Positions 3,113-18,033 of a DNA stretch of 30,457 nucleotides are shown in pieces. The notes beneath the pieces were generated by a model. The model ran no database searches. It saw nothing but the letters and a program-made list of their open reading frames with translations, and was not told the DNA's origin. The stretch covers positions 1-30,457 of the IMG/VR virus record IMGVR_UViG_3300046534_000322; one strand, given 5' to 3'. The translations under genes were made by a program, and so were the position numbers. Source of the stretch: a virus. Position 1 is the stretch's first letter; every line of letters begins with the position of its first letter.

Positions 3113-3159
3113 ATTATAACAAGGTTTTGATGATTTAATAAATAACTAATTGATATAAC
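3113..3159 (-). promoter_or_regulatory. Phage promoter of repeated class, copy D (denV)
   Basis: The minus strand has TATAAT (3113-3118), an 18-nt spacer and GTTATTTATT (3137-3146), with a GTTATATC half-site upstream (3152-3159). The upstream dyad is reduced to one arm and is 8 nt closer than in copies A and B. The denV start codon lies 31 nt downstream of the -10 box. Confidence 0.7.
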
Positions 3160-3170
3160 GTTATTCTATT

Positions 3171-3488
3171 TTAATCTATCTCTTCACCGCACTCATCACA
3201 CTCTAGTCTGCTACTCTCACAGTTACTACAAGGAGGCATACTTGTAGCACTGCAATAGCAAGGCTCTTGTGTGAGTGCTATAGTACCTCCGCACTCACAC
3301 TCACCACCTTCTTCAAGGCTCCTTAGTTCTTGCTCAAATAAAACAGCGTAAACTACTCCGTTAGTAGCATCAACACTAACCATGTTGTTTACTACACTTC
3401 TAACAGTAGTAACAAAACCAGAGTATGGTATACCAGCAGGCATCGGACCGTCAAGAGGAACTACTTTGACTCTGTCTCCTCTGTTCAT
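3171..3488 (-). CDS. Small protein with KOW/SH3-like N-terminus and cysteine-rich zinc-binding C-terminus
   Basis: A 105-residue protein. Residues 1-58 (GDRVKVVPLDGP, YSGFVTTVRSVVNNMVSV) have the strand pattern of a KOW/SH3-like barrel. Residues 61-105 hold eight cysteines in CxC and CxxC pairs (CEC, CYC, CSNC, CDEC), which would suit one or two zinc sites. Such an arrangement suggests nucleic-acid or RNA-polymerase binding, but no named family was recognised. Its ATG overlaps the stop of the Dda-like helicase by 4 nt (ATGA), so the two are translationally coupled. Confidence 0.78.
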   Translation of the reverse strand: MNRGDRVKVVPLDGPMPAGIPYSGFVTTVRSVVNNMVSVDATNGVVYAVLFEQELRSLEEGGECECGGTIALTQEPCYCSATSMPPCSNCESSRLECDECGEEID

Positions 3489-4786
3489 GGTGTGTATACC
3501 TTGTGTGATGCGCGGCTTATGCCTACGTATGTTAATGTTAAGTATAAATCAAAGTTACGTTCTGCAGCTATAGCTAAATCGTCAGTATCTAGTATAACAG
3601 TATGGAACGTTGAACCTTGACTCTTGTGTACAGTCATAGCATGAACAAAGTCCATACATACAACACAGTCATCGAAACTAAGAAACTCTCTCCAAGCTTT
3701 AGACCGCTCTCTAGCTAACTTGTGAGTGTAGTTAACTTTAGCCCAAGCTACTGCTTTGTAGCCTCTAAACTCATCTTCTATAGCTTTGTTACTAGCTACA
3801 GCGGCTCTTTGAAGCTCTTCCCTGAGTCTTTTAAAACGATAGTGACCGAAGACATAAGCAAATACAAATTCAGCACCGTCAGTGTCTTGAAACAGACCGA
3901 ACCCACAATTTTCTGACTCTATAAGACCTTCAAGAGTTTTAAACTTACTACCTAAGCTCAAAGGGTCAGTATAGTGTAAGTCTATACAGTTAACATCTTC
4001 TACACTGTGTTTAAACACATAGTGATGCTGAGTAGTAGGACTAAATACATCGTCGTCATTTGCTGGGAACGCATAGCCTTGAATTTTGTAGTTCAAGTCT
4101 TCTACGCGTTTGTTAGTGAAAGCTAGATACACCTTGTCAGGCTCTCTAAACCTTACTTTGTCAATGTCGATGCCTCTTTCAAAGAAGCCCGGTATAGACT
4201 CTAGAGGCTCTGGCTGTGCGACTTTATCTATATAGCTAATTAGTTTCTTCAGAGGAATTTGCAAAGGGTTGTCGTTGCGGTACTGCTTAGTTAACTTCTT
4301 ATGGTACTTGCTACCTTCAGCTTTAAGAGTCTGTTTATCTCCAACAGGTGGCAGTTGGTGATGGTCACCGTACGCAACTAATTTAAGTATTGGCTCACCT
4401 GTGTACATAGGGTCTTGACATGCACGTATGTCCATAGTGTCTTTATCACCGACCATACTATACTCGTCTAAAAACATGACACGAGGCTTTTCATCAGGCT
4501 TACTAGTCTGCATAGATGAGCTAACTTCAGACATCTTAACAGCACTAGAGTTAACAGTAGGACGCTTACCTAAGAAACTGTGCAGAGTCTGTACACGAGC
4601 AAATGTAGGTAACTTAGCTCTAAGTATACCACAAGCTTTGTGAGTGTAAGCGCAAACAACGTAAGGTATTTCATTGTCAATACAGTACTGCACGTCTTTG
4701 CGCATGTCAGTAGTTTTACCTGTGCCAGCAGCACCAGTAACAAACATATCCCAAGCTTCTGGGTCCTCTAAGAATTGCTTAAACAT
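3485..4786 (-). CDS. SF1B DNA helicase (T4 Dda / RecD-like)
   Basis: A 433-residue ATP-dependent 5'-3' type DNA helicase. Motifs in order: Walker A GAAGTGKT (18-25), DEYS motif II (107-110), GDHHQLPP motif III (140-147), VHKSQGST (386-393, UvrD_C_2/RecD-type motif V) and YVGISRAS (420-427, motif VI). The length equals that of T4 Dda (439). It would remodel forks or help strand exchange and origin firing during phage replication. AGGA precedes the ATG, and the start overlaps the upstream 76-residue gene by 8 nt. It is in an operon with a GHKL ATPase upstream and a zinc-binding protein downstream. Confidence 0.93.
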   Translation of the reverse strand: MFKQFLEDPEAWDMFVTGAAGTGKTTDMRKDVQYCIDNEIPYVVCAYTHKACGILRAKLPTFARVQTLHSFLGKRPTVNSSAVKMSEVSSSMQTSKPDEKPRVMFLDEYSMVGDKDTMDIRACQDPMYTGEPILKLVAYGDHHQLPPVGDKQTLKAEGSKYHKKLTKQYRNDNPLQIPLKKLISYIDKVAQPEPLESIPGFFERGIDIDKVRFREPDKVYLAFTNKRVEDLNYKIQGYAFPANDDDVFSPTTQHHYVFKHSVEDVNCIDLHYTDPLSLGSKFKTLEGLIESENCGFGLFQDTDGAEFVFAYVFGHYRFKRLREELQRAAVASNKAIEDEFRGYKAVAWAKVNYTHKLARERSKAWREFLSFDDCVVCMDFVHAMTVHKSQGSTFHTVILDTDDLAIAAERNFDLYLTLTYVGISRASHKVYTP

Positions 4787-5009
4787 CTATTATTCCTCTT
4801 GGGAAGTACTTAAGTATTTCAGGGCTCATATCTTCGTTTAAATAAGTAAAGCAGAATTTAGCACCGAAGTATTCAAAAGCTAAATCTCTGCCATGAGCAT
4901 GGTCTTTGCACTTTATCGCAGCTACACAGTTCTTATCAAAAGTTTTACCATTAACAGAGTGAGCGTGTATCTGACCGAAAGTCACAAATACTGTATTATC
5001 AGAAGACAT
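4779..5009 (-). CDS. Small hypothetical phage protein
   Basis: A 76-residue protein with no recognised catalytic motif. It begins with a strand-rich segment (TVFVTFGQIHAHSVNGKTF) and ends with AFEYFGAKFCFTYLNE and LKYFPRGIIDV. The pattern (NGKTFDKNCVAAI, FEYFGAKFCF, KYFPRG) resembles small conserved proteins that recur in phage replication operons. The start overlaps the GHKL ATPase gene by 11 nt and the end overlaps the helicase start by 8 nt, so it is embedded in a tightly coupled operon. Confidence 0.78.
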   Translation of the reverse strand: MSSDNTVFVTFGQIHAHSVNGKTFDKNCVAAIKCKDHAHGRDLAFEYFGAKFCFTYLNEDMSPEILKYFPRGIIDV

Positions 5010-6015
5010 CAGCAGCTCTCCAACCTTTAGACCTGTGAATTAGTTTTTCGAAGTTGTTTTGTTCGTCACGACGCATAAAGCGCTTGTTGTCTACAGCGAA
5101 TGTAGTTAAGAAGTTAAAAGGAGTGTTTGGGTCAGGTGGAGTAGGTGTTGTGTCAATTCCTGCGCCTTTAAATACACCGTAAGCTGAATAACCGAATGAC
5201 AAACCGCCTACCTTCTGACCTGTTTTGACTATAGGAACATCTCCATAAGTGTATGTAAATATGTTCTTAATCTTTGTCTGCATTTTAGGAGTGATGTAGT
5301 ACTCTAGCAGGCTAACGTCTTTAGCTTCGTTAATTAGCATATCAAATACTTGTTTAGGGTCTCCATAGTTTCCGTGGCCTACAGCTAAAGCTGTTGAAAT
5401 ACCGTCAACCATGTTTCTATCGCGGTTTAGCTCTATCGCATCTGGAGCAAAGTTGTAAGAGTGTGTTAGTTCTTTGTCACGGCATACAAATAAGCCATTG
5501 ACGTAGATATCTCCACCTTCACCAACTACATCGAAGTGTTCTGGCTTGCCTAAGAAACTACCGAAAGGAGTAAGCTTCTTCTGTATCTCGCTCTTATAAG
5601 AGTCTAACAGGTCACACGTGAAAATAGTGTCGCTAGAAGAGTATTCTAACACTTCGAATACTAGACAGAATGTATCCTCTCTTGTTATTTCATTAGTTCT
5701 GAATTGGCCAGATATTTTGCTTTTGCCAGTAAATATGACAGGATTAGTTTCAAGTCTTGTCAGTATCATCATAGCTAGTTTAAGACCTTCACCGTACTTG
5801 CCTATAGAACCATCGCTTTTCTGGGATACACCTAGTGTAAAACAATTTAAAGGTATTTCTGTGTCAAAAGTTTGAACTACTATAGCTTGGTTAAAAATTT
5901 CATAGCTCGCTTCGCAGTCTAAGTCTAACGCGTTTTGTGCAACTTCTCTAAGTGCTTCTAAATAGCCCCAATCAGAGCAATATTCGGCTGACATATTAAA
6001 GTCTAGTATTTTCAT
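4999..6015 (-). CDS. GHKL (Bergerat-fold) ATPase
   Basis: A 338-residue protein with an N-terminal histidine-kinase/Hsp90-like ATPase domain. The N box is EALREVAQNALD (E24, N28) and the G2 lid is GSIGKYGEGLKL (G75, G77). The G1 box is degenerate: where DxGxG is expected I see TFDTEIPLNC, keeping Asp51 but losing the glycines. The rest has no recognisable kinase, topoisomerase or MutL part. Phage GHKL proteins of this type are common but of unknown role; T4 RIIA is one distant example with a GHKL domain. The gene overlaps the 55-residue gene upstream (ATGA) and the 76-residue gene downstream. ATPase fold likely; role unknown. Confidence 0.85.
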   Translation of the reverse strand: MKILDFNMSAEYCSDWGYLEALREVAQNALDLDCEASYEIFNQAIVVQTFDTEIPLNCFTLGVSQKSDGSIGKYGEGLKLAMMILTRLETNPVIFTGKSKISGQFRTNEITREDTFCLVFEVLEYSSSDTIFTCDLLDSYKSEIQKKLTPFGSFLGKPEHFDVVGEGGDIYVNGLFVCRDKELTHSYNFAPDAIELNRDRNMVDGISTALAVGHGNYGDPKQVFDMLINEAKDVSLLEYYITPKMQTKIKNIFTYTYGDVPIVKTGQKVGGLSFGYSAYGVFKGAGIDTTPTPPDPNTPFNFLTTFAVDNKRFMRRDEQNNFEKLIHRSKGWRAADVF

Positions 6016-8099: not shown

Positions 8100-10295
8100 T
8101 TATTCATCTGCCTCAAATGGGTTTTCTTCAGGGAGTGTTATGTTGTATGACTTAACACCGTCTTTACTGCTCGGTCTAATTTGTATGCCGTGAGTCTTAA
8201 TAACTTTAGTTAGTGAACGTTGCTCTCCATTGTGGTCTGTCATTTCAGCGTATAGTAAGAATAAATCATCTAGTGTTACATGCCTGTTTGAGAATGCTCT
8301 TCCTACATCTGGGCATTCATAGTCATCACACATGTCAACTAGGTAATCAAACATACAGTGTTTAATACAAAATGCAATACGGCCAGCAGCGTATAAACTG
8401 TCAGCTATTAGATTAAGCTTATCTTCTGATTCGTGAGCTCTCATGTAGTCAGTCATGTTAAGTGCAGGAACTTCTGTAGCTAAGTAATATGCCCAGTCTT
8501 TACTCTCTGCCATTATTCTATCGTGAACATCACTCATACCGCCTGCTGCCTCAATCCACATGGCATCAGCTAATACATTAGGAGTATTAATTAGTGTGAC
8601 ACGTCTATCGCCATCCTCAATCATCAGAGGGTTCTTATTTGCAGTCATTATGAATGTCACATGGTGATAATAGTCAAATCCATCTGTGCGCATCTCACGT
8701 ACCCTAATCTTAGGCTTTCCGGTATAAGCTTTGATTTTGCCTAGCGCTTCATCTTTATCACGCTGATTAGTAAGCTGATTACCGTACTCATCTAACTGTA
8801 CAAAGTAACTATCTAACATGTAGCCGTTGTATACTTCTAAGAACTCTTTTACAGTAGGCCTGCCCATGCTACCCATCATCTTCTCTAACAGAGACACAAA
8901 CAAATCTTTACCTGAGCCGTGCTTACCTATGAAGTATAGTATAATAGGTGAGTACTTAAACGTTGTTAGCTTTGTCTTAATAAAAGAAATAACGTAGTTA
9001 CGCATTACTGGGTCAGGTATGAGAGTTTCCATGTATTTTATAGTAAGCAGCGGTCTACTGTACTTAGCTTCGTATATCTCAGGGTCTCTGAGTATAGCTA
9101 ATTCAGGAGTCTGTATGAATGTGTTTAAGTCTCTAGCTGTTGGGTCAACTCCTTCATGAAATCCGAATGTGTCTGCTGGGTCTGACTTAACATTAAGCAT
9201 CGGTACACTGCACTTAACTTCTTTCTTAGACGGGTGAGTTACAGCTACAGCTTCTATGAATGCCATTAGCTCACTGTCTCTAGCAAAGCTTTTATACTCT
9301 TGATTTATTTCATCGACTACATAGTACATATTACGATGGTCGTCAAAGCCTATATCTAATGCTGCCTGCCTTTTAGACTGAATAATGAGTCTGTGTGCGT
9401 CCCAGTTGTCCTCATATTTCCATATAGGTACACCATCTATAGATGCATGCCTTGTTAACATCGGGTCCAGTATAGTCTTCTCAAGACGTCCAGATTGCAT
9501 AGGCTTACTAAACATCTCATTAATAGTTACCATAGCCTCCATGTACATAGTCTCGTCTATAGAGATGTCTGCTCCTAGTATCGCACTAACTTTAGACATG
9601 TACTCTGAGCCACGACCCATAGGCACATCATTAGGGTGCAAGTGACCTTTAGCAACATACTGAGGTACACTTCTGAAGTCTTTAGGCGTTATTATCTTAA
9701 ACAGCCCCGGCATGTACTTATTTCTTTTTAGTAACTCTGTAACTAATGGATTTAAACAAGACGCAGTGAATATATTAGTTACTGCTGATTCAGCTGGCTT
9801 CTGTTTTAAACTAAGCTGTAGTAACAGTGCTTTGACTGCTGGAGGCAATGAAGGAGGCTGAGATACTTCTGCTAACGGGACTTTAGTTTTGTTGCCAGCG
9901 GTAGCTAAATATATGAAGCCTCTATTACTATAGAAGTCTAGTGCAAAGTTGTTGTCTTGTATACTAAACGATGAAGGTAATTCGTCATCATAAGCATATA
10001 TCAGTGTGCCTGCTTTGTAGCCCTTGCCTTTAGACAAGAACACCATTTTGTTGTCTACATCAAGAGCTCTGAAAATATCCCAAGTGTTAGTATTATCACA
10101 GTCAATAGCAATAATGCCTGAGCAACGTCCGGTAATCGCCCCACCGATTGACGTAGCATTTGTGTTCGTGACTTTCTCATACTTATCTCTCCAATTCTTT
10201 TCGAATATAGGTAAAGTCTTCTGTCCGCCTTCTATTCTTTCTAGCTTGCCTTTAAGCGGGACTGTGTTCCATCCTAAGTCTATATATTTTTGCAT
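8100..10295 (-). CDS. Primase-polymerase / SF3 (D5-like) helicase
   Basis: A 731-residue bifunctional replication protein. Residues 1-150 look like a PrimPol (AEP) domain: GWNTVPLKGK, IAIDCDN with D65 and D67, and a later acidic residue in LDFYSNRGFIYLA. I see no histidine anywhere in the first 200 residues, although AEP motif II is normally sxH. Residues about 430-600 are a DUF5906/D5-type SF3 helicase: Walker A FIGKHGSGKD near 455-463, Walker B QLDEYGN near 500 and a sensor segment IMTANKNP near 552. The start overlaps the HTH gene by 16 nt. It would unwind and prime phage DNA. Confidence 0.9.
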   Translation of the reverse strand: MQKYIDLGWNTVPLKGKLERIEGGQKTLPIFEKNWRDKYEKVTNTNATSIGGAITGRCSGIIAIDCDNTNTWDIFRALDVDNKMVFLSKGKGYKAGTLIYAYDDELPSSFSIQDNNFALDFYSNRGFIYLATAGNKTKVPLAEVSQPPSLPPAVKALLLQLSLKQKPAESAVTNIFTASCLNPLVTELLKRNKYMPGLFKIITPKDFRSVPQYVAKGHLHPNDVPMGRGSEYMSKVSAILGADISIDETMYMEAMVTINEMFSKPMQSGRLEKTILDPMLTRHASIDGVPIWKYEDNWDAHRLIIQSKRQAALDIGFDDHRNMYYVVDEINQEYKSFARDSELMAFIEAVAVTHPSKKEVKCSVPMLNVKSDPADTFGFHEGVDPTARDLNTFIQTPELAILRDPEIYEAKYSRPLLTIKYMETLIPDPVMRNYVISFIKTKLTTFKYSPIILYFIGKHGSGKDLFVSLLEKMMGSMGRPTVKEFLEVYNGYMLDSYFVQLDEYGNQLTNQRDKDEALGKIKAYTGKPKIRVREMRTDGFDYYHHVTFIMTANKNPLMIEDGDRRVTLINTPNVLADAMWIEAAGGMSDVHDRIMAESKDWAYYLATEVPALNMTDYMRAHESEDKLNLIADSLYAAGRIAFCIKHCMFDYLVDMCDDYECPDVGRAFSNRHVTLDDLFLLYAEMTDHNGEQRSLTKVIKTHGIQIRPSSKDGVKSYNITLPEENPFEADE

Positions 10296-10795
10296 TCAGA
10301 CATCTTCTTATAAACTGTGCTCATACTAACATTAAGCTTCTTAGCTATCTGATGAGCATCTAAGTGATGTAGCTTCCTAACGTCTTCTACAGTTATCAGA
10401 GTACGCTTCTTTCTTTCTTTGCGTAGATTAAACTGTCTTGCTACTTGAGACACTCTAGCCTGAGTGACGCCTAGGACAACTGCAATGTATTCTTGAGACG
10501 AATTAGGGTTAGCATTAAGCATTGCAGATATATCGTCTGTGAGACTCTTACGGGGCTCAGTCCAGCCTTTAGAATATAACACCTTGTTATTCTCAATATT
10601 AGTCAGGTAGAAGTAGTACTTAGGGTCTTCGGAGACTAAGGCTTCTTCGTACAGGCCTTTAGTCATTTTATACATAGGTAGCTTGCTTCTTTTAAGCCAC
10701 CTGCGATACTCTTGATGGTTTATGTTAGCCTCTAAAAGCAGGTCATCTATAGTACCTTGCTTCTGCATGGAATGCAGCAAGTAAATTACTTCCAT
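10280..10795 (-). CDS. DNA-binding protein with two helix-turn-helix motifs
   Basis: A 171-residue basic protein. One HTH is at about residues 100-123 (SSQEYIAVVLGVTQARVSQV) and a second at about 146-165 (DAHQIAKKLNVSMSTVYKKM), the latter resembling Hin/resolvase-type HTH. The N-terminus (DLLLEANINHQEYRRWLKRS) could be a third helical DNA-binding part. It is co-transcribed with, and overlaps, the primase-helicase gene, so it may load that enzyme at an origin or regulate the operon. A ribosome site (GAGG) precedes the ATG, and a terminator lies upstream of the gene. Confidence 0.82.
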   Translation of the reverse strand: MEVIYLLHSMQKQGTIDDLLLEANINHQEYRRWLKRSKLPMYKMTKGLYEEALVSEDPKYYFYLTNIENNKVLYSKGWTEPRKSLTDDISAMLNANPNSSQEYIAVVLGVTQARVSQVARQFNLRKERKKRTLITVEDVRKLHHLDAHQIAKKLNVSMSTVYKKMSECKNI

Positions 10796-10876: not shown

Positions 10877-11356
10877 TTACAGACCGCGAGCTTCAGAGTC
10901 AGCTAAACATTCTTCTAGTGTGGCGAACCCGTAGCCATCGTCTAAAGGAGATATCTTAGCACGCTCAAGTGCAATAGCTTCTTGCTCAGTAGCGATGTCA
11001 GCAACTTCTATCTCACCGGCGGTTAAACGAGTAAGCAAACCAGCTTCAGCTTCTTTAGCAGCTTTATACTGACCATTCCACTTTGCTGTACCGTCTTTAC
11101 TCATCGAGCTTAAGCCTGATGCAGATGAAGTCTTAGCTCCAAAATCTACAACACGAGGGTCGAAGAACAACTTGTGATAAGCACAACGAACGGCAACAAC
11201 TACGTCGTCTACAATATGGAAAGCACTTACACCACCGCCGCCACCTGTTTTGGCTTCAGCTAACTTAATTACTTGCTCGATTACAGAACTTACTTTTTTA
11301 TCTACGTTAGCTTCTAGTAAGTCAACGATGGCAGAGAACATTTTTTTAATAGCCAC
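10877..11356 (-). CDS. Conserved early protein, paralogue of the 14755-15168 product
   Basis: A 159-residue protein that starts at GTG with GGAG about 8 nt before it. It shares a pattern with the 137-residue protein at 14755-15168: VxLLEANxxKKVS, a YHK, then SSAxGLxSMxKxGxxxW and QxxAxKxAExxLL. It has a glycine run (GGGGG near residue 38) and a longer acidic C-terminus than its paralogue. It forms a single-gene unit with its own promoter and a strong terminator, which suggests high and separately controlled expression. Function unknown. Confidence 0.85.
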   Translation of the reverse strand: MAIKKMFSAIVDLLEANVDKKVSSVIEQVIKLAEAKTGGGGGVSAFHIVDDVVVAVRCAYHKLFFDPRVVDFGAKTSSASGLSSMSKDGTAKWNGQYKAAKEAEAGLLTRLTAGEIEVADIATEQEAIALERAKISPLDDGYGFATLEECLADSEARGL

Positions 11357-13376: not shown

Positions 13377-13639
13377 AGTGTTATTCCTGTCCCTATGTAT
13401 TTGTTAATAGGCTTTAGGGCTACCTCAATAGCTCTGAGTACGTTTCTTGAGCGGATGTGGTCGATACTAAGGATAGCCTCATTACGTTTAATCTCGTTGA
13501 CTAGAGAGACTAATTGAGCTACATCGAACTTATTAACTAATACTACTCTTGAAGAGCGAGACTTTAGCTCTAGTAAGTGGCAAAGTTCATCACTCAGGTC
13601 AACCTCGTGAGTCGTGGTCTTGACTACTGTATATATCAT
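13373..13639 (-). CDS. Small hypothetical protein
   Basis: An 88-residue protein with a strand start (MIYTVVKTTTHEVDLS) and helical remainder (FDVAQLVSLVNEIKR, VLRAIEVALKPINKY). No motif is recognised. Its start codon follows copy 1 of the repeated hairpin/leader element, with AGGA as ribosome site. It overlaps the CGYxACVC-family gene downstream by 4 nt. Confidence 0.72.
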   Translation of the reverse strand: MIYTVVKTTTHEVDLSDELCHLLELKSRSSRVVLVNKFDVAQLVSLVNEIKRNEAILSIDHIRSRNVLRAIEVALKPINKYIGTGITL

Positions 13640-13644
13640 GGTAC

Positions 13645-13699
13645 TATTCCTAGTTTAAGGGTGTTGTCAATAGGACCTCGTGAAGCCCTATTAAGAATC
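13645..13699 (-). repeat. Repeated hairpin/leader element, copy 1
   Basis: A 55-bp element just before the 13373-13639 gene. On the minus strand AATAGGGCTT pairs with AGGTCCTATT across a CACG loop (hairpin 13669-13692, with G-T pairs). TTGACA follows, then TTAAACTAGGAATA, which carries the ribosome site. It is nearly identical to copy 3 (37 nt identical in the hairpin half). Confidence 0.85.
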
Positions 13700-13701
13700 G
13701 C

Positions 13702-13857
13702 CTAATCATCTTCTACGCGTTTTTTAATGAGCTCATCTAAGAGCGTCTGGATGGTCCCAGTCTGATTCTCGAGTTCTTCTATAGCATTATCCATATCTTC
13801 GTCTTCGATGAGCTCACAGATGTGCTCAAGCTCCTCAATTAAATCTCGTATACTCAT
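13702..13857 (-). CDS. Very acidic small protein (51 aa)
   Basis: A short frame from MSIRDLIEELEHI to KKRVEDD, with AGGAG 6 nt before the ATG. It is strongly acidic and almost wholly helical, with heptad-like leucines and isoleucines (DLIEELEHICELIEDED, TLLDELIKKRVEDD), so it may form a coiled coil or mimic DNA charge. It is the first gene after promoter copy B and is followed by hairpin element copy 1. Function unknown; existence likely from ribosome site and promoter spacing. Confidence 0.72.
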   Translation of the reverse strand: MSIRDLIEELEHICELIEDEDMDNAIEELENQTGTIQTLLDELIKKRVEDD

Positions 13858-14407: not shown

Positions 14408-14411
14408 TGCT

Positions 14412-14454
14412 TATTCCTAGTTTAATGAGGTTGTCAATAGAGCCTCGTGAAGCT
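14412..14454 (-). repeat. Repeated hairpin/leader element, copy 2
   Basis: A shorter, diverged copy before the 13958-14407 gene. The stem AGCTT/AGGCT keeps the CACG loop but has different paired bases from copies 1 and 3, so structure looks conserved rather than sequence. TTGACA and TTAAACTAGGAATA follow as in the others. It overlaps the stop of the upstream gene by 2 nt. Confidence 0.75.
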
Positions 14455-14692
14455 AAATGTCGTTATCATACTCATACTTAACGATGTCTATCTCATCGTA
14501 TAAGTCTTGGCCAAATGCTGCGATGACTTCAGCCTTAGTTATAGACTCATCCTCATAGGCTTCAGAACACGCGTTGTACTTCAATTGGTCCATGTATTCA
14601 TCAGCAGTAGGCTTAGACGGTATCCAATTTCTGTCGTCCTTAAGCTCAAACTCTGCAATTTCAGCTTGTAGTAATGCTTCGCATTTAGTCAT
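14453..14692 (-). CDS. Small acidic hypothetical protein
   Basis: A 79-residue acidic protein (MTKCEALLQAEIAEFELKDD, ending DEIDIVKYEYDNDI), mostly helical with no recognised motif. It starts directly after hairpin element copy 3 with AGGA as ribosome site, and its stop runs into copy 2. It is therefore framed by two copies of the element. Confidence 0.72.
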   Translation of the reverse strand: MTKCEALLQAEIAEFELKDDRNWIPSKPTADEYMDQLKYNACSEAYEDESITKAEVIAAFGQDLYDEIDIVKYEYDNDI

Positions 14693-14697
14693 GGTAT

Positions 14698-14752
14698 TAT
14701 TCCTAGTTTAATGGGGTTGTCAATAGGACCTCGTGAAGCCCTATTAAGAATC
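14698..14752 (-). repeat. Repeated hairpin/leader element, copy 3
   Basis: A 55-bp copy between the 14755-15168 and 14453-14692 genes; the hairpin is at 14722-14745. It is almost identical to copy 1, including GATTCTTAATAGGG and TTGACAAC. The -35-like TTGACA is 16 nt from AATAAT, but that would start transcription at about the ATG. A leader or processing role seems more likely than a simple promoter. Confidence 0.85.
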
Positions 14753-14754
14753 AA

Positions 14755-15168
14755 CTAAACTATTGGTACGATGGCATTCGCTGCATTATTGATAGCCTCT
14801 TGAAGCGCTGGGAGGTCTTTGATACTTGTTGAACCATGAGCTAAGGATGCCAATAGAGCGGTCTCAGCAGCCTTCTTAGCGCGTTGTTGCTTAGTCCAAT
14901 GGGATACACCGACTTTGCACATCGAAGCTAATCCAGTCGCACTCGAGGCCTTCTTCCCATATTCGTGAGTGGATACTTCTTCCCATTGCTTGTGGTAGTA
15001 GCAATAGACTGAGGTGACATTACCTTCGCTGTCCTTAATGAAATTCTTGGAATTCTGCTTAGTGGTAACTAATTCAAGAATCTGAGGGAGCATCGTTGAT
15101 ACCTTCTTGTTTTTGTTAGCTTCAAGAAGAGCGACTATTTCTGCGTACTGGGTTTTGATGTTTGACAT
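14755..15168 (-). CDS. Conserved early protein, paralogue of the 10877-11356 product
   Basis: A 137-residue protein, the first gene of the whole leftward arm. Shared with its paralogue: VxLLEANxxKKVS, YCYYHKQW, KKASSATGLASMCKVG, HWTKQQRAKKAAE and a C-terminal QEA. The basic W-x-KQQRAKKAAE helix could contact nucleic acid or RNA polymerase. AAAAGG precedes the ATG. It sits under promoter copy C, where its paralogue has a simple sigma70-like promoter. No family name is known to me. Confidence 0.85.
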   Translation of the reverse strand: MSNIKTQYAEIVALLEANKNKKVSTMLPQILELVTTKQNSKNFIKDSEGNVTSVYCYYHKQWEEVSTHEYGKKASSATGLASMCKVGVSHWTKQQRAKKAAETALLASLAHGSTSIKDLPALQEAINNAANAIVPIV

Positions 15169-15197
15169 GATGTTTTCCTTTTGGTTAGCGTGAATAC

Positions 15198-15252
15198 ATC
15201 TTAACTGCTTGTGACTTATTTAATAAATAACAAATAATTATACTATATAACT
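15198..15252 (-). promoter_or_regulatory. Phage promoter of repeated class, copy C
   Basis: The minus strand has TAAGAT (15198-15203) as -10, an 18-nt spacer, GTTATTTATT (15222-15231) and a degenerate dyad around 15237-15251 (GTTATATAGTATAAT). The gene at 15168 starts 30 nt below the -10. It lies at the edge of the structured non-coding region. Confidence 0.65.
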
Positions 15253-15483
15253 AACTGATATATACTAGCGTTAGCTAATTGTGGTACGCACGTGTACGCT
15301 CGCATAATAAATGGTGAATTATACTAGTAAGCGCTGAGTGAGCTCTGGTCGTGTTTAGTAGTCTCGGATAGGTGTTACTATTAGTTAGATGATTGGAGCT
15401 GAAATCACTTTTGAGAAATATTGAACTACTCGTGTAGTATAACTTAAGCTTATAACGCAGTTTAACACTCATAACGCTGTTCT

Positions 15484-15585
15484 ATAAATCTAATAAATCT
15501 CATCTTTTTGTAACCTGTACCTTAGATGGTAAGTATTCTTACCTTATTCATAGGTTGTATATTGATTAAGATTTATTAGATTTAT
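15484..15585. repeat. Nested inverted repeat (possible cruciform)
   Basis: Outer arms of 17 bp are exact complements (15484-15500, ATAAATCTAATAAATCT, and 15569-15585). Inside lie AACCT/AGGTT (15512-15516 and 15552-15556) and a hairpin GGTAAG-TATT-CTTACC (15528-15543). Gaps between the levels are nearly equal on both sides, so the whole 102 bp can fold symmetrically. Each outer arm is itself two copies of TAAATCT. Confidence 0.75.
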
Positions 15586-15619
15586 TAAATAATATAATAA
15601 TAACTACTAATATTAGCTA

Positions 15620-15840
15620 TACTCATAAGTTCTAAGCATATTTAGGTCTAAGCTATAAGCTCGCTGGTTCTATATTAGTTATGCTTTTAAGTTCTAAGAA
15701 CTATTGGCACGAGCATATACTCATAAGTTCTAAGAACGTTTAAGCATAAGCGAAAGCACGCTGTCATCTATGTTAGTTATATGTTATGCTTTTAAGTTCT
15801 AAGAACATTTGAGTCTAAGCTAGTAAGTTCTTATAACTTA
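15620..15840. repeat. Iteron-like palindromic repeats
   Basis: AAGTTCTAAG recurs at 15627, 15689, 15725 and 15794, three times as the dyad GTTCTAAGAAC. The left flanks alternate between ACTCAT and ATGCTTTT, so the four cores form two copies of a two-part unit about 100 bp apart. A fifth degenerate copy ends at about 15840. They look like protein-binding iterons. Confidence 0.75.
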
Positions 15841-15950
15841 TAAGTTAGTCCAGGTAGGTACCCCTAGGGTAGATGTTGCTTGTAGTTGTTCTTGCGTCCC
15901 TGCCTTTTAAATTGTAGTAGCGTTTTAGAGTTATTAAATTTATTAACTTG

Positions 15951-17576
15951 CTACACATCTCCTCCTTGCGGTATCGAGCTAGTTCTAAGAGTCTTAGCCT
16001 TGTAACTGAAACTTTTATCAGTAGCAAGCTGCCTAAGACAATCAGCTCCGTGAGAGTACTCATCATGTCTAGGAGTCTTCTTCCAGATTTTCAACTTGTC
16101 GTCCCACTCCTTAGTATACTTGTTTATGCAGCTAATTAGATAAGTGCAGCACGGGTCAATGTACATATTAGGTATGATACTACGCACGTGCTCGATGCCG
16201 TCCAGTAAGTCACCTTTAGGTATGACGTCTATGAACCACTTTTGATAATTGTCACGCTTGTAGTCTTGCACTATAGCCTTTCTCTTCTTAGCTCGTCCGT
16301 TGCTGTGATGTGCTCCTTGCTCTCGTACTTCTATGTCATGAGGGAACTTAAGAGAGTATACGTTGTCACTCCACTTGTGATTTTTGATGTAGTCAAGATA
16401 GTGCACGATAGCATATCCATCGTTGTAGTACTCATCAAGTATCTTCCACTCACCTTTATAGAACTGAGCGAAGATTAGAACTGTGTAATCGTCTACGCCT
16501 AAGTCGAAGAATACATACAGTTTAAGGTTAGGGTCGTACAGGCCCTTGACTACTCTGTTTTTACGTACACAAGTCTCGCTGAATGTGCGTGAGAAGTAGG
16601 TTCCGTCTTTGGAGGCCATGAAAGCTTCCTCTGGAGTTCCAGGGTACTCTTGAAGTATGTCGCTACCGAGTTCGCGCCTCTGAGCTATCCAGAAGTTTTT
16701 CTGCTTCACAGTTAGCTTAGCACCTGTTAGTTCCTCTAGTTTACTGAAGTAAGTTGCAGCTTCCTCGTCTATAGACTGTAGTATGTCTAATTGGCAGTCA
16801 GGGTCATCGAGCCACGATAAGAAGACAGGATAGAAGTCTTTAGGTGACATCTCACCAGAATGCAGAGCTAACTGAGAGTTGTTCCACATAGTTTTAAACT
16901 CATTGTCACCTTCAGCAGTTGATTCGATTACACCAGTGTTGCCAGCAGCTAGTGCCTGCAGTGTACCAGTCTTGACTTCTCTAGCACGCTTCGGGTAACT
17001 ATTAGCGATTTTGCCGAACTCAGATATGTGCAGGCGTTGAAGTGTAGCAGAACGAAAAGACACACGTATGAACATAGAAGAGTTGTTGCTAAAGCTGTAC
17101 TCCTTCGTATTGTCTTTCTGAAGTGACACTTGTATGAATGCTTTGATTTCATCGCTTACGTTATCCCATAAAAATTTAGTTCGTTCAAGTAGAGTAGAAG
17201 CCTCGTCAGTACCTTGAGCCATGAGTCCTACATTGAGGTGGCTCTTGAAAACTGAGTCGTCGAAGTAGCTAACAAGCCAGAATGTGCTTATGCCCTGCTG
17301 TCTTGACTTAAGTATTATTACACGAGGGTGGATTCTAGAAACAGCATACACTCTGTGCTGAGCGTAGTTCATACGGAATACTACTACTTCACCTTTCTTG
17401 TTTATAATCTTATATATGTTATTAAGGCGCCAGAGTTTGTTACTTAGGTATACTCGCTCGAACTCTTTCTTGCTAATACCTGCAGGTGGTGAGTCATTAA
17501 AGAAGTCAAAGTAACCTTTTAAGTCAGGATATAAGTAATTAAACTGCTCCCGGGTTATCGATAGTCGGTTTGTCAC
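15951..17576 (-). CDS. Terminase large subunit
   Basis: A 541-residue DNA-packaging motor. The ATPase part has an atypical Walker A, KSRQQGIST (90-98), and a Walker B/coupling segment near LHISEFGKI (about 185-193). The C-terminal RNase H-like nuclease has FFDLGVDDYT near residue 360 and the last acidic residue in SHGADC (D512). The start is GTG with AAGGAG 8 nt before it; an overlap of 38 nt with the small subunit supports coupling. It is transcribed away from the capsid genes, which is uncommon. Family clear; packaging mode not inferable. Confidence 0.93.
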   Translation of the reverse strand: MTNRLSITREQFNYLYPDLKGYFDFFNDSPPAGISKKEFERVYLSNKLWRLNNIYKIINKKGEVVVFRMNYAQHRVYAVSRIHPRVIILKSRQQGISTFWLVSYFDDSVFKSHLNVGLMAQGTDEASTLLERTKFLWDNVSDEIKAFIQVSLQKDNTKEYSFSNNSSMFIRVSFRSATLQRLHISEFGKIANSYPKRAREVKTGTLQALAAGNTGVIESTAEGDNEFKTMWNNSQLALHSGEMSPKDFYPVFLSWLDDPDCQLDILQSIDEEAATYFSKLEELTGAKLTVKQKNFWIAQRRELGSDILQEYPGTPEEAFMASKDGTYFSRTFSETCVRKNRVVKGLYDPNLKLYVFFDLGVDDYTVLIFAQFYKGEWKILDEYYNDGYAIVHYLDYIKNHKWSDNVYSLKFPHDIEVREQGAHHSNGRAKKRKAIVQDYKRDNYQKWFIDVIPKGDLLDGIEHVRSIIPNMYIDPCCTYLISCINKYTKEWDDKLKIWKKTPRHDEYSHGADCLRQLATDKSFSYKAKTLRTSSIPQGGDV

Positions 17577-18033
17577 TTAGATACTCCTTATAGCCAGATT
17601 CACCAGAGTCAAAGTTATTGTTTTGTACATTGACGTTAACAGCGTTCTTGTTGAAGAAAGCATTCTGCAAGTCACACAGAAGTTTAGTGCAGCTCATAAG
17701 GTCAACAACATCATCTGGTCCTACATTAGCTATTACTGTTTTTAGCTTAACTAATATTAGCTCAGCAGACATCTGCATGTTAACGTTAAGTCTGTCTAAG
17801 CCTTTTATCTTGTCCATAAATTCAGAAGCGTCTTCAGGCAGCTCGCCAGATATGTGCTCTATTAGTTTTAAGTCTTGTGAAAGTATTAAATCTAGTTTGC
17901 CTTCTTTTTCTGCTATGTCATACTCCTTTTTATATTTTAGAACTGTCGTGTAGCCAAGTTGAAGAGATGTGGCTATGTCAGCGAAAGCCGTGCCTTTACT
18001 TATTTCTATAAAGACTTTATCTCTGTTTGTCAT
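17539..18033 (-). CDS. Terminase small subunit (probable)
   Basis: A 164-residue protein whose N-terminus carries a HTH (GTAFADIATSLQLGYTTVLKYK, residues 14-35), followed by an oligomerisation-type helical middle and a flexible, Asn-rich C-terminus (NVNVQNNNFDSG). This is the layout of phage TerS proteins that bind the packaging site. It lies directly upstream of and overlaps the large subunit. AAGGAG precedes the ATG. Assignment rests on HTH plus position. Confidence 0.82.
   Translation of the reverse strand: MTNRDKVFIEISKGTAFADIATSLQLGYTTVLKYKKEYDIAEKEGKLDLILSQDLKLIEHISGELPEDASEFMDKIKGLDRLNVNMQMSAELILVKLKTVIANVGPDDVVDLMSCTKLLCDLQNAFFNKNAVNVNVQNNNFDSGESGYKEYLSDKPTIDNPGAV

Follow-up and report, generated by a model that had tools for sequence, protein, structure and literature searches.

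Between its terminase genes and its early genes, the phage DNA analysed here carries a stretch of almost 800 bp without a gene, and the question is whether it serves replication, packaging or both. A preliminary description, made from the sequence alone, had proposed a candidate replication origin or packaging site. The packaging or terminus half of that proposal is now well supported by comparison with relatives, through a pair of elements at fixed spacing and two isolate records opened there, and the origin half stays unproven. No report on the packaging site or packaging mode of Kafunavirus-like podoviruses was found in the literature.

The phage and its gene-free region

The window, that is, the whole stretch of 30,457 nt that was analysed (positions 1–30,457 of IMG/VR record IMGVR_UViG_3300046534_000322), belongs to a Kafunavirus-like podovirus, of which it is a 30.4-kb piece. 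Its structural arm is read rightward from 18.2 kb, and its early arm and terminase pair leftward, a two-arm layout also present in complete relatives, and the early arm codes for a P4-family primase-helicase, a Dda-like helicase, a Gp2.5-like SSB and a family A polymerase. The small terminase subunit, TerS, is predicted, partly through its structural neighbours, to have an N-terminal helix-turn-helix (HTH) domain with long helices after it. Structural matches were clear for the HTH part only, and the G20c small terminase is listed among them at Z 5.7 with a poor rmsd. A profile search returned no solved structure for the large subunit, TerL, to which the TerL proteins of the Bcep22 group are distant relatives (~29 %). 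The first early gene belongs to the phrog_10459 family, which has a second member in the window (10877–11356), the two paralogs sharing conserved YCYYHK and MCK motifs. Two copies, one being the first early gene, are also found in many relatives, and the protein gave a confident model (pLDDT 89) with no informative PDB match.

The gene-free stretch between the first early gene and the TerL gene covers 782 bp (15169–15950). Though the preliminary description was correct in finding no gene in approximately 700 bp at 15253–15950, the true left edge lies ~85 bp further left, and the extension takes in a promoter-like repeat (Table 1). The single internal ORF (15275–15472, minus strand, 65 aa) is probably not a gene, since it has no match among 50,697 phage records. 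Repeated 10-mers cover 0.19 of the region, as against a mean of 0.03 and a maximum of 0.13 in shuffled sequences, and the features that had been named there earlier are all present and all above chance. An Rfam search of 14.6–18.4 kb found no RNA family, no tRNA or tmRNA was found, and blastn of the region against phages yielded only weak AT-rich matches.

Table 1. Coordinates of features in and beside the gene-free region of the window
Feature	Position	Strand	Remarks
First early gene, phrog_10459 family	14755–15168	-	Family match; no function assigned
Repeated intergenic promoter-like element	15219–15262	-	Others at 3133, 6230 and 13903; TATAAT on minus strand
Degenerate copy of palindromic promoter-like block, apparently in opposite orientation	15282–15314	+	16.6 bits, next unrelated 10.5; no -35 part
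Nested inverted repeat	15484–15585		Perfect arms of 17 bp, resembling AT box; 6-bp hairpin inside
Repeat array, lineage-specific, with GTTCTAAGAAC palindromes	15611–15837		GTTCT-A-AGAAC exact at 15691, 15727 and 15796; diverged copy at 15827
GC core CCCTAGGGG (TerL strand), proposed terminase cut site	15861–15869	-	Sole CCCTAGG in window, 69 bp from AT box
Whole bipartite site	15865–15956	-	nhmmer envelope, E = 0.001, top hit in window
AT palindrome TTATTAAATTTATTAA, upstream box, proposed TerS-binding box	15931–15946	-	Sole window site with at most 1 mismatch to TAATAAATTTATTA
TerL gene (terminase large subunit)	15951–17576	-	phrog_2, 1e-22; ~59–60 % identity to VPMS1, PH1 and KF-1
TerS gene (terminase small subunit)	17539–18033	-	phrog_18995; predicted N-terminal HTH

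A two-part signal downstream of TerL

Relatives, both isolates and IMG/VR sequences, were gathered via TerL and via the first early gene. Downstream of TerL, those that were fetched have a largely gene-free stretch, some with a small ORF inside it or just past TerL, and on the TerL strand the order is mostly AT palindrome(s), GC core, repeat array, promoter-like block or elements, and early genes. The AT palindrome (consensus TTAATAAATTTATTAA) follows TerL in nearly all relatives, and a GC-rich core with the consensus GGACTGG/CCCTAGS lies ~70 bp beyond it. At a score threshold of at least 22/28, the AT box and GC core were found as a pair in 36 of 65 non-redundant TerL-downstream regions, in the reversed order in five, and not at all in each of five sets of shuffled sequences, and the distance between box and core in the 65 regions peaks sharply at 67–72 bp. 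A two-part signal at the same spacing is, then, common to dozens of related phages. It is also specific: in 2.9 million viral contigs, scanned without selection, the combined pattern occurred at five loci, each of them next to a TerL of this family, and it was absent from 257 Gb of bacterial and archaeal genomes. The bipartite site is conserved with the terminase relatives and adjoins the terminase genes.

When a profile was trained on 24 IMG/VR loci, among them neither the window nor any isolate, the site came first in Amaethon (3e-11), PH1 (6e-9), VPMS1 (2e-8), KF-1 (6e-6) and ctXG1253 (3e-4). The window is the weakest of the first-ranked matches (E = 0.001), and the match there is limited to the AT box and the spacer (model positions 9–72). 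Its core, CCCCTAGGG, adjoins GGTACC and keeps the CCCTAGG half of the consensus without the GGACTG half. None of 2000 shuffled sequences placed CCCTAGG 69 bp from the AT box. The CCCTAGGG/GGTACC patch, on which the packaging reading mainly rests together with the AT palindrome, had been mentioned only in passing in the preliminary description and is present as described, its CCCTAGG being unique within the window; the AT palindrome had gone unnamed. As the core of the window is only half conserved, we infer its packaging site from the relatives.

Two isolate records are opened at the core. That of ETP-1, a close relative, is labelled circular, has no terminal redundancy and was opened inside the GC core, so that it ends with ...GGCGGTCCGGT and begins with GCCTAGGGTCCCC.... 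No reason for this opening point was found. If records were opened at random over the genome, an opening in the 14-bp core would arise by chance in ~3 of 10,000 cases, and if the depositors picked the ~490-bp intergenic stretch the figure is ~3 %, the fairer of the two. The ZHX record starts 27 nt upstream of the ETP-1 opening point, and its termini share an exact direct repeat of 1288 bp, amounting to 3.2 % of its unique length. Because its right end, where the terminal repeat ends, sits at the start of a tandem repeat, the length of the terminal repeat may be an assembly artefact. The KF-1 and IW-1 records were opened at TerS.

A second repeat-rich stretch follows the first phrog_10459 gene in relatives, at 3385–3800 in locus L154 (KF-1), where it consists of tandem repeats of ~100 bp, and at 4218–5367 in locus L155 (Amaethon). 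The end of the ZHX record falls in this stretch.

The ends of assembled contigs were rejected as evidence of physical ends, since contigs mostly break within repeats and those of full length are closed by overlapping ends. Among IMG/VR contigs beginning on the early side, none begins at the core, which counts against the site, and three contigs (L078, L032 and L086) end 19–24 nt beyond it, too few for use. The start of the VPMS1 record, 1.3 kb beyond the core, was considered as a second cut and is actually a 20-nt overlap at a repeat.

On this comparison, 15861–15950 is likely to be the packaging initiation site, where the terminase would both recognise the DNA and make its first cut, predicted between 15869 and 15870, and the mode of packaging is probably headful (pac). 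The HTH domains of TerS proteins that bind pac or cos sites are known to bind packaging initiation sites, and in SPP1 the DNA protected by TerS adjoins the cut (PMC4737164, PMC7672466). TerS of the window would bind the AT palindrome and, once bound, would position TerL on the GC core, at a distance of ~70 bp (6–7 helical turns), for the first cut in the concatemer. Filling of the head would start at the cut end, with headful packaging the most likely mode and with ~3 % terminal redundancy, and filling away from the AT box would fit the ZHX record, if that record mirrors the virion molecule. The remainder, on the side of the early genes, would contribute early promoters and a fast-evolving array of operator, origin or packaging-accessory sites.

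The repeats as a possible replication origin

It is possible, though doubtful, that the region is a replication origin, in which the palindromic repeats would act as iterons, the AT-rich inverted repeat as an unwinding or cruciform element, and the 171-aa HTH protein or the P4-type primase-helicase as initiator. Such a role is compatible with a packaging site at the TerL end. The symmetric nested inverted repeat with 17-bp outer arms that had been reported earlier proved to be exact and far beyond chance. Its outer arms (15484–15500 and 15569–15585) are complementary at 17/17 positions with a spacing of 68 nt, an arm this long arose in none of 500 Markov shuffles, and as single-stranded DNA the repeat folds at -16.4 kcal/mol (z -6.8), with an inner hairpin, GGTAAG/CTTACC, at 15528–15543. 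The arms of this supposed cruciform resemble the AT box (AATAAATCTAATAAATC), the one at 15574 matching it with 2 mismatches, and therefore may be extra protein sites instead.

The palindromic repeats were likewise recovered: GTTCTAAGAAC has 8 hits, both strands counted, against 1.06 expected (0/100 shuffles), and the AAGTTCTAAG family is a 45-nt unit present in four copies, at 15611, 15673, 15709 and 15778. No other clustered array of repeats was seen in the window, and this one forms a cluster in a gene-free AT-rich region. Arrays occur at the same place in 27 of 38 relatives, compared with 1 of 38 coding controls, which is beyond chance. The HTH protein (10280–10795) is encoded beside the P4-family primase-helicase, has weak similarity to D5-like regulators and to the CRISPR-repeat binder Cbp1, and is a candidate for binding the array.

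Against an origin, neither the sequence of the array nor the inverted repeat is conserved, and several relatives have no repeats. Hence, of the expectation that the repeats would recur in related phages, the part concerning arrays at this place holds, and the part concerning the window's own repeats and inverted repeat does not. The array differs in sequence between lineages (for example, CTGGACGTCTA in PH1), an 18-mer from the window array is absent from all viral contigs searched, and in the relatives that were fetched the inverted-repeat arm is missing and the 11-mer palindrome occurs only as single copies, in a few of them, so neither of the latter two can be taken as a conserved element. 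No DnaA-type box was found in the window at the stringency tested. The preliminary description had also looked to cumulative GC skew for a turning point at the region. In four of five complete relatives (PH1, KF-1, Amaethon and ctXG1253) the minimum instead lies beside TerS, at the divergent promoter, and therefore the skew follows gene direction; a switch independent of gene direction was absent, and skew was set aside as a guide to an origin.

Promoter-like elements

Before the early genes, relatives carry a promoter-like block, TKTACW-N17-TATTCGCRYGYGCACRY, that is followed by AATA and lies at 2461–2520 in locus L154 (KF-1), with equivalents in L153, L155, L156 and L157. There is one copy per isolate genome, and its weight matrix scores ~50 bits in each isolate with the next best match below 10. 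By its sequence, the block resembles an extended -10-like promoter overlapped by a palindrome. The window has a degenerate copy (Table 1).

Two further families were seen in the window. The promoter-like intergenic elements at 3133, 6230, 13903 and 15219 share TTAGTTATATNRTATAA...GTTATTTATTAAA on the minus strand, upstream of genes read leftward. The other family is a repeat, up to 70 bp long and 86–93 % identical between copies, at 13636–13705, 14411–14453 and 14689–14758; it carries TTGACA on the minus strand, precedes a short early gene in each case and is probably a duplicated strong early promoter with its leader.

A broader arrangement, which we consider speculative and quite unlikely, is a genome-junction cassette of like construction throughout the phage group, in which the AT/GC cut site and the promoter-like block would enclose an array unrelated between lineages. 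This array would serve as an exchangeable module, either origin or operator, that the equally variable HTH protein next to the primase recognises, and the cassette would couple replication start, early transcription and packaging.

Unlikely alternatives: fixed ends and transcription signals

Fixed genome ends would give the GC core a different part. It is unlikely that the core is the border of a fixed direct terminal repeat of the T7 or tf type, with a second cut ~1.26 kb downstream, in place of a headful pac site. In T7, TerL is followed by the concatemer junction, repeats and early promoters, and the order here (TerL gene, proposed junction, short repeats, early promoters) is alike. Such ends would also suit ZHX, whose exact terminal repeat starts so close to the ETP-1 opening point, and phage tf has 186-bp direct repeats with a left end that begins CCCCGG (PMC3517423). 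However, a tandem repeat starts right where the ZHX record ends, the search for a second conserved sequence resembling a cut site gave nothing, and the closest families of this TerL are not those of T7. The nearest TerL group with reported ends that was found, the Bcep22-like group, is circularly permuted, terminally redundant and likely headful (PMC9144972), again in favour of the headful site proposed here.

A cos site with cohesive ends is very unlikely. The core is GC-rich with partial dyad symmetry, the cos of PaP3 starts with GCCGGCCCC (PMC7672466), and the ETP-1 record is free of terminal redundancy. However, 33 IMG/VR contigs extend more than 400 nt across the core and the assemblies of the isolates KF-1, IW-1, PH1, VPMS1 and Amaethon all cross it, which disfavours plain cohesive ends, and complete contigs close on themselves by overlaps located elsewhere than the core.

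It is equally improbable that the AT and GC pair is a transcription signal unrelated to packaging (a terminator of the terminase operon or an operator), for though the pair comes directly after TerL and ordinary hairpins lie near it in some relatives (VPMS1 and KF-1), it is present besides those hairpins, the core was rejected as an intrinsic terminator because its RNA folds no better than shuffled sequences (mean z -0.12) and only 1 of 24 has a T run behind it, and the opened records would be left unexplained.

Comparison with known packaging sites

The site resembles the pac of SPP1 and SF6 (pacL-pacC-pacR) in having TerS-bound DNA beside a defined first cut by TerL, a TerS of the HTH type and headful filling (PMC4737164, PMC7672466), all of which are only proposed here. 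It differs from SPP1 pac, which was mapped around the start of the TerS gene, in lying after the TerL stop codon, and the proposal for SPP1-type TerS is that it selects DNA by its bend, with no strict sequence, whereas a conserved 14-bp palindrome at fixed spacing is found here. With P22 pac it would share a sequence-defined start of headful packaging by the terminase genes, again only proposed in the present case, but P22 pac is an asymmetric 22-bp sequence within the TerS gene (PMC7672466) and the site described here is bipartite and intergenic. A GC-rich cut sequence with TerS recognition nearby, both of them predictions for this phage, recalls the cos of lambda and PaP3, and PaP3 also has two convergent gene arms and an HTH TerS (PMC7672466, PMC3517423). 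Lambda and PaP3, however, have unit-length genomes with cohesive ends, in contrast to the assemblies that cross the core and the terminally redundant ZHX.

Implications for Kafunavirus-like phages

The predicted cut base, with its fixed two-part code, would give a start coordinate for the annotation of these genomes, and the relatives KF-1, ETP-1, ZHX, Amaethon, PH1 and VPMS1 can be cultured. If TerS does read the AT palindrome, these phages would provide a new case of DNA reading by a small terminase, via a conserved palindrome at a set distance as opposed to the bend-reading proposed for SPP1. The adjacent repeat array may, in turn, be a lead on where replication starts in these phages.
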